NCBI RefSeq assembly: GCF_034009455.1 | Contig: NZ_CP125380.1 | Span: forward strand, 1,405,001 to 1,469,000 | DNA from: Pseudomonas sp. P5_109 | Lineage (GTDB): Bacteria > Pseudomonadota > Gammaproteobacteria > Pseudomonadales > Pseudomonadaceae | DNA length: 64,000 nucleotides | Direction: 5' to 3' | Shown: in pieces, positions 5,495 through 57,434 of the stretch | Layout: each line of letters begins with the position of its first letter | Position numbering within the stretch: the first letter of the stretch is position 1 | Notes under the pieces: model-generated | Seen by the model: the letters and a program-made list of their open reading frames with translations, nothing else | What the model was told of the DNA's origin: nothing | The model's database searches: none | Made by a program: the position numbers and the translations under genes

Positions 5495-5571
<77 letters not shown>

Positions 5572-5803: not shown

Positions 5804-5880
<77 letters not shown>

Positions 5881-54972: not shown

Positions 54973-55158
54973 AAGGTTGCACCTGATTGGTGCGCTTCTT
55001 TCAGGGGGGAAAGTGTGTAGCCGAGTAGCGTGATGGCATGTTGCCGTAGAGAAAGGCCACAGCCTCACGGTGACGTAAACGTAACGGGAACAGTTGAGAG
55101 GGCAATTGAACGTCCGCTCAATTGTTTCTGGATGTTGATATGTGTGGTTTTCAAAGTC

Positions 55159-55231
55159 GCCTTCGCGAGCAAGCCCGCTCCCACATTCAACCGAGTCGAA
55201 TGTGGGAGCGGGCTTGCTCGCGAATGAGGCG
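55159..55231. repeat. REP element pair, type A (close spacing)
   Basis: CTTCGCGAGCAAGCCCGCTC and GAGCGGGCTTGCTCGCGAAT arms with only about 15 bases between, forming one near-perfect 70-base palindrome just after the tubulin-like gene. Confidence 0.88.
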
Positions 55232-55235
55232 ACGC

Positions 55236-57434
55236 TTAGTGAGCGGTCTTGCCCGTATGGTTATTCAACGAAATAACCTTGGTCTTGCCAATGCGGTGAC
55301 GGTAGATCTCGCGCAGATACTTGATCGATTTCTTCACGCAATCCCGGGACAGGCGGATGTCATTGATCGAGACAAATTTTTCCTTGTCGTTGATCAGCTC
55401 ACGGTACTTCTTCTCGTACATCGGCTTGATCGCGTACCAGTTGGTATCGAGGATCTTCGCCGGGTTCTCGAATTCGTTGAGCAACTCGTCGATCCGGTCT
55501 TCATCGAACTGTTCGTTGATGATGAAGTCCAGGATCGAGTTGTCCAGGGTCTCGTCGAAGCGGTACGGGTTTTTCGCGAAGCAGCGCTTGATGAAGGCCA
55601 CGATCAGCGTCAGGAAGTCGTCCGACAGGCATGGGCTCTTGGCGATCAGAGTGGTCAGCGACAGGTTGGCCGAGGCGCCGATCACCAGCGCGTAGCGCTT
55701 GAGTGTGGTGTTGGGGAACAGGCTGTTGAGGTGAGTCTTCAACCGGTTCAGGTCCATGTAGGACAGCTTGTAGTCCTTCGGCAAGGAAACGATCGACACC
55801 ACCGACGAGCAATTCTTGAAGAAGTGCAGGTCATGCAGGGCCGCCGCGTCGTAACCGGAGTTCTTGTACTGCTCCAGCGACGCGCGATAGCGCTTGGACT
55901 CGATCGGCAACAGGCTGATGCCTTCGATGGCCTGGGTGACCTTGTTGAAGTGCGGCAGGTCGATCGAGCGGAAGAACAGGTCGTCGATATTCAGGCGCTG
56001 CGGCTCTTTCTCGAACACCTTGAACTTGTCGCTGCTCGGCGGTGGGGTTTCCGGCACCACGGACTCGGCATAGGCAATTGCCACCGGGCCAGCCAGGCTC
56101 ATGAACAGGTCGTTGGCGTCCAGGCGGATGGTTTCGCCGATGTCGATTCCGGCACGACGGAAATAGTTCTGGTCGTAGTCGGTGGTCACCGCCTGGGCCG
56201 TCAGAATGTTGAAGATCTGCTGCGAGATGTATTGGTTGGCATGCTTTTCCATGGCATTGACATCAATGTTCTGGATATTGCCGTCATCGTTCTCTTCGGC
56301 GTAACGCATGATGTCGTTGGAGATCAGCATCATCGCGTTCCATGGGCGGATACGGCCCATGACGCTGGCTTCGCTGCTGTCTTCGTTGGCGAAGTTGTAG
56401 GAGAAGTCCCACTCTTCCGACAGGTATTTGCACAGCAGACGGCCGGCGTTGATGTGCAGCGCTTCGGACATTTCACTGCGGTGGTCGGAAATGTTCGGCA
56501 GCACGCAGATGCCACTGGTGAAGATCGGTTCGAAGACGAAGGAGTGGCCGCTCTTGCTGTCGTGCTCGTCCATCGGCTTGGTGTCGAACGTCTTGTTCAT
56601 GTACGAGTGCTGCTGGGCCAGGCCGAATTCCGAGGCCATGCCCGAGCCGGTACCGCCGCCGGCACTGAAGATCGAGAAATACAGGCGCGACTGGTTGGCC
56701 TTGATACCGCAGCTGTCGATCAGGTACGAGTGAATCATTTTCCAGTCAGGGCTGGAGAAACGCTGGGTGTCCTTGTTCAGGATGATCTTGGCCAGGTACT
56801 GGCCGAGGATCGGCGCGTTACCGGCGCCACCGGCGTGGACTTCCGACAAGTCCATGATTTTCATCTTGCTGTAGTCGCGCAGGAATCCGCTTTTTTCGCC
56901 CTTGCGCGAGAAGCGGATGCGTCCGGCGATGTCCTTGTCCAGGTCACCGAGCATCACCAGCGGTTCGACCAGAAACACCGGCTTGGTGTTCTTGTTCTGG
57001 CCCAGGCGCAGGTTGTTGCGGATCCACTGGGCCGGGCTGTAGCCCTTTTCGGCAAAGCGCTTGTCCGGCGACAGGCGATCTTCGTTGTTGAATTCGTTGA
57101 GGTAGAACTTGCGGGCGTTGTACACCAGCTCCGCCACGTCCAGCGCAATGTTCGAGCCGCAACGGCCCAGGCCGATCAGGCACACCGACGGGAATTCCTG
57201 ATCGTTGTGCTGTTCGCTGTCGCCTTCCAGGTGCGGTGCGCGCGGGAACACCATGTCGCGCAGGCCGTCGAGGTTGTCGAGGATGCGGTCGGTGTTGGTT
57301 TCGGTGAAGTACAGGTATTGCTGGGTCGCCAACGGGCGCGATTGAATCAACGGCTTCGGTGATGACGGGCTGTTGGCCGCGGGGCTCAACGTCAGATCGG
57401 TTACCGCAGTGGCCGGGTTGTTTTTAGAAGTCAT
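55236..57434 (-). CDS. Large tubulin/FtsZ-superfamily protein
   Basis: A 732-residue protein with the loop set of the tubulin/FtsZ GTPases: T1-like GLGRCGSN (88-95, close to the GQCGNQ loop of eukaryotic tubulins), T3-like AGGAGNAPILG (201-211, compare GAGANPEVG of FtsZ), the signature GGGTGSG (259-265), and a T7-like RLDANDL (437-443) with the two Asp that activate GTP in the neighbouring subunit. The FtsZ-like GTPase core is spread over about 80-460, with insertions, and a further 270 residues have no recognised domain. No transmembrane segment. Similar proteins are known as the Pfam 'Tubulin-like' group, which has no clear function. It is not the cell-division FtsZ, which lies in the dcw cluster. 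Lone gene. Confidence 0.8.
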   Translation of the reverse strand: MTSKNNPATAVTDLTLSPAANSPSSPKPLIQSRPLATQQYLYFTETNTDRILDNLDGLRDMVFPRAPHLEGDSEQHNDQEFPSVCLIGLGRCGSNIALDVAELVYNARKFYLNEFNNEDRLSPDKRFAEKGYSPAQWIRNNLRLGQNKNTKPVFLVEPLVMLGDLDKDIAGRIRFSRKGEKSGFLRDYSKMKIMDLSEVHAGGAGNAPILGQYLAKIILNKDTQRFSSPDWKMIHSYLIDSCGIKANQSRLYFSIFSAGGGTGSGMASEFGLAQQHSYMNKTFDTKPMDEHDSKSGHSFVFEPIFTSGICVLPNISDHRSEMSEALHINAGRLLCKYLSEEWDFSYNFANEDSSEASVMGRIRPWNAMMLISNDIMRYAEENDDGNIQNIDVNAMEKHANQYISQQIFNILTAQAVTTDYDQNYFRRAGIDIGETIRLDANDLFMSLAGPVAIAYAESVVPETPPPSSDKFKVFEKEPQRLNIDDLFFRSIDLPHFNKVTQAIEGISLLPIESKRYRASLEQYKNSGYDAAALHDLHFFKNCSSVVSIVSLPKDYKLSYMDLNRLKTHLNSLFPNTTLKRYALVIGASANLSLTTLIAKSPCLSDDFLTLIVAFIKRCFAKNPYRFDETLDNSILDFIINEQFDEDRIDELLNEFENPAKILDTNWYAIKPMYEKKYRELINDKEKFVSINDIRLSRDCVKKSIKYLREIYRHRIGKTKVISLNNHTGKTAH

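Follow-up and report, generated by a model that had tools for sequence, protein, structure and literature searches.

The closest described system to the gene analysed here, which encodes a 732-residue protein with the nucleotide loops of a tubulin/FtsZ-type guanosine triphosphatase (GTPase), is the FtsZl2 family. The gene is located on the minus strand of a stretch of 64,000 nucleotides from Pseudomonas sp. P5_109 (contig NZ_CP125380.1, positions 1,405,001 to 1,469,000), indicated below as the window. In the paper defining the family (Makarova and Koonin, Biol Direct 2010; PMC2875224), FtsZl2 was identified through a GGGTG(S/T)G search, its type being PFL_1302 of Pseudomonas fluorescens Pf-5. 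The authors report loops T1, T4, T6 and T7 together with helix H7, inserted segments between T1 and T4, and an HHpred match to PF00091 at E 0.0033. They also describe about 300 C-terminal residues of mixed alpha/beta structure, lacking coiled coils and relatives. The family is described there as restricted to Proteobacteria, with Pseudomonas, Marinomonas and Chromobacterium included in the figure, and as lacking associated genes; filaments were predicted by the authors. The name also occurs in a paper on the degradation of FtsZ by ClpP (PMC7327170), and a paper on plasmid KfrC (PMC8124265) was set aside as unrelated, 'tubulin-like' meaning FtsZ there. A literature search, with subscription journals outside its coverage, revealed no functional study of FtsZl2. 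Some members are labelled 'Tubulin-like protein' or 'FtsZ/tubulin family protein' in database entries.

The protein of the window fits FtsZl2 on the points of the published description that were compared, and orthology to PFL_1302 is presumed. A sequence-only reading of this DNA had proposed the gene as the best candidate for an undescribed system. The observation was correct and the protein is real, but it belongs to a known family, because FtsZl2 was defined in 2010 with a type member from Pseudomonas fluorescens. Selection and tree data, a larger neighbour survey and a tentative assignment of tubulin domains to the C-terminal region are added here to that family, a diverged branch of the superfamily which most likely acts as a GTP-driven accessory filament protein. 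The gene and the segments discussed are reported in Table 1.

Table 1. Location of the FtsZl2 gene and of its relevant segments. Positions are those of the window, residues those of the protein; A2 is the family alignment described in the text.
Feature	Position	Strand	Basis
FtsZl2-family tubulin/FtsZ-like GTPase gene, 732 amino acids	55236..57434	minus	Open reading frame, purifying selection, Pfam, structure match
T1 loop GLGRCGSN, residues 88-95	57150..57173	minus	G88 and G90-N95 invariant in A2
T3 loop GGAGNAP, residues 202-208	56811..56831	minus	Invariant in A2 except Ala204
T4 loop GGGTGSG, residues 259-265, superfamily signature	56640..56660	minus	Invariant in A2; inside the PF00091 match
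T6-like loop ISND, residues 371-374	56313..56324	minus	Invariant; putative equivalent of FtsZ IPNE, by position and motif
T7 synergy loop RLDANDL, residues 437-443	56106..56126	minus	Both Asp invariant; putative equivalent of FtsZ NVDFADV
Conserved C-terminal region, residues 484-725	55260..55985	minus	Mixed alpha/beta, then helices; spanned by tubulin alignments
Basic amphipathic helix, residues ~693-712	55299..55358	minus	Hydrophobic moment higher than elsewhere in the protein; both models show a helix at 697-712

The gene is real and under strong purifying selection. In the open reading frame list of the window it appears as a frame of 732 codons starting with ATG, on a strand which the sequence-only reading had left unstated; it was matched at 1,460,239-1,462,434 of the 6.96 Mb genome, a single contig, and its GC content falls within the range of the surrounding DNA. 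Comparison with 109 relatives having an intact frame (104 distinct sequences, mostly close pseudomonads) gave a median ratio of nonsynonymous to synonymous substitution rates (dN/dS) of 0.0445 over the 106 of 109 comparisons with dS above 0.1, which are not independent, because these relatives are close kin. In the rows printed of this comparison, it is the third codon position that changes most.

Membership in the tubulin/FtsZ superfamily, as a diverged member, is supported first by profile matches. The HMM search proposed together with the sequence-only reading detected both Pfam Tubulin (PF00091; E 0.0031, 18.2 bits) and Tubulin_2 (PF13809; E 0.0047, 16.7 bits, residues 240-377), each below its curated cut-off of 33 and 27, respectively. 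The same two profiles each match 37 of 46 family members (set A1), with best E values of 3.1e-5 and 0.0012. PF00091 used on the whole genome finds the separate FtsZ only, and PF13809 gives nothing at E 0.001 across 57 related genomes, among them the present one. The possibility of a chance motif match was rejected on the basis of the family-wide Pfam matches, of the invariant loops and of the structure matches of model 2, both described below. The earlier assignment to the superfamily is supported. Other searches of the window protein were negative: no match was found to defence-system or phage families in PADLOC and PHROGs, nor in a PDB search with the single sequence, and NCBIfam gave a chance match only. 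The sole PDB profile match, to ribosomal protein L23 (E 0.38-0.92), was also taken as chance. As a separate observation, Pfam DUF6562 matches 14 of the 46 A1 members (best E 0.00076) and is not found in the window protein at E 0.05.

Conservation was evaluated on alignment A2, made of 107 rows and 106 distinct sequences (one protein is present twice), whose first-row numbering is converted to protein numbering by adding 37. The four loops originally pointed out are all present in the superfamily order, and a fifth, ISND, was added at residue 371. They are nearly invariant across A2, including Cys92 of T1, Asn373 of T6 and the T7 aspartates 439 and 442. FtsZ of the same genome, encoded at locus L116, shows the corresponding motifs in the same order: GGGGGN at residue 20, GLGAGANP at 68, GGGTGTG at 106, IPNE at 164 and NVDFADV at 208. 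The T1 loop of the window protein is unlike GGGGGN, as had been claimed, and resembles GQCGNQ of tubulin. Both T1, with its invariant Cys, and T4, in the form GGGTGSGM, look closer to tubulin than to FtsZ.

Spacing between loops, measured from start to start, is wider in the window protein than in FtsZ of the same genome: 171 residues against 86 from T1 to T4, 112 against 58 from T4 to T6, and 66 against 44 from T6 to T7. Such large insertions, in particular the first two, could sit on assembly faces, and a tubulin-fold GTP-binding switch or sensor may be imagined, in which the extra segments between loops block assembly and filaments are not formed. This alternative is rather unlikely. Within a filament, T7 acts on the nucleotide of the neighbouring subunit, and T7, with both aspartates kept, is the most conserved among the twelve segments compared (mean 0.965), the least conserved being the linker 458-483 and the stretch 38-80. 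So strong a constraint on T7 speaks for assembly.

In the superfamily, GTP is bound by T1-T6 and its hydrolysis is completed by T7 of the next subunit. Given this mechanism and the conserved loops, FtsZl2 would bind GTP through T1-T6 and would assemble head to tail, the T7 aspartates of one subunit completing the GTPase site on the next. The product would be a dynamic cytoplasmic filament, existing beside FtsZ.

Two structure models were considered; model 2, whose numbering is converted to that of the protein by adding 37, is the deeper one and is of low confidence. The sequence-only reading had made the tubulin fold its test: model 2 shows it, with only tubulin-superfamily titles among the 50 rows of the structure comparison, while model 1 failed to show it. 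Foldseek alone gave no significant match among the best 50 of 265 rows, and no row named tubulin was found among the best 50 of 192 from viral structures. A helix predicted by model 2 at residues 392-412 may correspond to the connector helix H7, the predicted local distance difference test (pLDDT) of the blocks there being only 43-54.

The C-terminal region, put at 270 residues in the sequence-only reading, had been described there as lacking a recognised domain, which holds for Pfam, as no match was obtained at E 0.05 with this region. Structure comparison suggests a different picture. In model 2 the 289 residues following T7 (444-732) contain strands and helices, and the C-terminal region is predicted better than any other part of the model (model residues 571-620 in blocks of 83-93, and 661-670 at 89). 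Structural alignments with CetZ end at model residues 583-590, i.e. protein residues 620-627, while those with tubulin extend to about 676-686 (protein 713-723), corresponding to chain residues 421-450. These end points, on a weak model, suggest that residues ~484-620 may correspond to the second domain of the superfamily and residues 656-725 to tubulin-like C-terminal helices. The helix 693-712 has a hydrophobic moment of 0.71; for stretches of 19 residues, the hydrophobicity score of the whole protein peaks at only 1.4. As a candidate anchor, this basic amphipathic helix could tether the filament to the membrane or to some widespread component of the cell.

The distribution of FtsZl2 was evaluated in several genome sets. 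In the relatives search it is carried by 28 of 57 genomes: its own, 26 of the 35 others of the genus and one of the 21 taken from elsewhere in the order. Identity with the copies of other pseudomonads ranges from 78 to 100%. Wider samples gave 4 of 370 genomes for the class, own included, and 12 of 397 for the phylum, own and one broken copy included. Two other orders were considered: that of genome G752, with 27 of 247 genomes, including a broken copy in G733 and fragments in G907 which may be a contig effect, and that of genome G411, with 2 of 6. In a species-representative collection, 566 of 580 pattern stretches encode a relative; the 80 named loci retained out of these 566 are all from Pseudomonas, including P. 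chlororaphis at 97%. Protein listings, comprising the best 120 of ~650-670 matches each, show proteobacterial carriers which include Pseudomonas, Marinomonas, Agarivorans, Celerinatantimonas, Rheinheimera, Arsukibacterium, Cellvibrio and Catenovulum, and none in Chromobacterium among the matches listed. The least similar full-length relatives aligned share ~55% identity, and none below this value was seen in the class and phylum genomes sampled, the protein listings being confined to the best matches given above.

The gene is absent from nine of the 35 same-genus genomes. In all nine, the periplasmic-binding-protein gene and DUF2288 are still adjacent and the stretches examined contain no FtsZl2 match; in one of them, G003, a dehydrogenase-like gene is found less than 200 bases after DUF2288. 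In G733 (locus L124, 8909-11607) the copy is in pieces, with an unrelated open frame of 210 amino acids between them. Because of this clean absence and of the broken copy, the gene is dispensable.

The sequence-only reading had also described a lone gene, with no operon partner, and the neighbour survey agrees with it. The survey covered 32 loci with 18 genus labels, 31 of them with an intact gene and some on short contigs, and considered frames of at least 90 codons and families present in at least four loci. Beyond close kin, no conserved neighbour family was found in at least four of the 32 loci, except ATP-binding cassette (ABC)-type ATPases, present in six loci at scattered positions. The dehydrogenase occurs as a neighbour in four Pseudomonas loci. 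Other neighbour genes recur in 4-5 loci, all from one family of hosts; these are taken to be a phosphofructokinase-like gene and succinate-pathway genes. The remaining recurring frames either shadow FtsZl2 or a neighbouring gene, or are additional genes from the same one-family stretch. In Pseudomonas the gene is flanked by DUF2288 and by a 3-hydroxyisobutyrate-dehydrogenase-like gene, which are encoded on the opposite strand, and a branched-chain amino-acid transporter lies nearby; these three were evaluated as partners and discarded, as they are not retained in other loci. The lack of a linked partner suggests that FtsZl2 works by itself or on some common component of the cell, probably with no dedicated genetic partner.

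These data also bear on two further explanations. FtsZl2 could be a second division FtsZ, aiding constriction under some conditions: it possesses the superfamily loops and coexists with FtsZ. Its absence from the nine same-genus genomes, and the lack of any conserved neighbour, division genes included, in the 32 loci make this quite improbable. Still harder to sustain is a DNA-partition tubulin of the TubZ/PhuZ type, left in the chromosome as a plasmid or phage remnant, since searches of 72,556 plasmid records and of 50,697 phage records gave no match, no relative appeared in one scan of IMG/VR, and no adaptor-like gene of at least 90 amino acids is conserved next to the gene in the surveyed loci. 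An accessory organising role is ranked as most likely, above division or DNA partition: the nine genomes lacking the gene and the presence of a normal FtsZ in its own genome favour such a role over cell division. FtsZl2 would then contribute to spatial organisation, shape or an envelope function under some conditions.

Evolution of FtsZl2 was compared with that of FtsZ by using the globular cores from 25 genomes carrying both. Within Pseudomonas, FtsZl2 is the less conserved in all 28 pairs (means 87.3% vs 92.6%). When Pseudomonas is paired with other genera, FtsZl2 is the more conserved in 105 of 136 cases (means 72.5% vs 68.9%), while among the other genera this happens in only 44 of 136 (means 69.5% vs 73.8%). 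Differences in rate among lineages could also contribute to these shifts, although the share of invariant columns is similar in the two cores, 251 of 634 for FtsZl2 and 111 of 306 for FtsZ.

The two trees, with 25 tips and FastTree supports, are in conflict at some points. In the FtsZ tree, genomes G541 and G552 group with G048 and Pseudomonas (0.943, 0.965); in the FtsZl2 tree they group with G924, then with G752 and G885 (0.993, 0.999). In addition, the FtsZl2 tree places G089 within its Pseudomonas clade, with enclosing nodes at 0.942, 0.954 and 0.994; the exact place of G089, on a long branch, is supported at 0.18. Horizontal transfer of FtsZl2 in some lineages is likely, not proven; the claim rests mainly on the tree conflict, because the conservation shift is not uniform across genera.

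A broader proposal may be put forward, tentatively and with the balance rather against it: FtsZl2 could be a self-sufficient bacterial tubulin, with T1 and T4 closer to tubulin and tubulin-type C-terminal helices, forming its own GTP-driven cytoplasmic filament and passing as a single gene between Gammaproteobacteria. If this were true, a separate cytoskeletal system would be present in 26 of the 35 genomes sampled from this Pseudomonas genus. Easily grown soil pseudomonads carry a GTPase of cytoskeletal type that is subject to strong purifying selection.

Some additional features were observed in the window. A plus-strand frame of 746 codons, at 55122-57362, runs antisense to the FtsZl2 gene. 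It was rejected as a gene, as its length is not kept in relatives and the FtsZl2 strand is the one under selection: the matching antisense frame, which stays open for 707 codons in this genome, has a median longest run of 510 codons in the 109 relatives, reaching at least 600 in 43 of them and remaining below 400 in 34. A shadow of codon bias is the simplest account of it. Directly downstream of the gene, at 55162-55224, lies a near-perfect inverted repeat with 30-base arms, 97% complementary, and a 3-base spacer, presumably resembling the repetitive extragenic palindromic (REP) elements common among fluorescent pseudomonads. Terminator-like sites between 54950 and 57650 are 8, against a mean of 2.4 in shuffled sequences, and a pair of them (54978-54994) is located between DUF2288 and the FtsZl2 gene. 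A promoter scan around the gene gave one site, inside it, a number equal to that of shuffles. Elsewhere in the window, two minus-strand tRNA genes, at 5498-5571 and 5807-5880, both scored 62.9 bits with Rfam and are ~235 bases apart.

When compared with known systems, the window protein is about twice the size of archaeal CetZ and plasmid TubZ, with which it shares 13-16% identity in structural alignments, and differs from them in its large insertions and chromosomal location in Gammaproteobacteria. Alignments with eukaryotic tubulin and bacterial BtubA run into the tubulin C-terminal helices at 8-15% identity, but the window protein is larger and encoded by a single gene, no pair partner having been found. 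FtsZl1, corresponding to Tubulin_2, gives a sub-threshold profile match; its gene forms an operon with a von Willebrand factor A (vWA)-domain protein, while the window gene has no conserved operon, no vWA family was detected among ten window neighbours scanned, and no neighbour is conserved in the 32 FtsZl2 loci, whose neighbours were not scanned individually. With FtsZl2 as published, compared through the description of the family, no differences were found. The two share loops T1, T4, T6 and T7, the T1-T4 insertions, a mixed alpha/beta C-terminal region of about 300 residues, the lack of gene partners and a distribution in Proteobacteria which includes Pseudomonas and Marinomonas.
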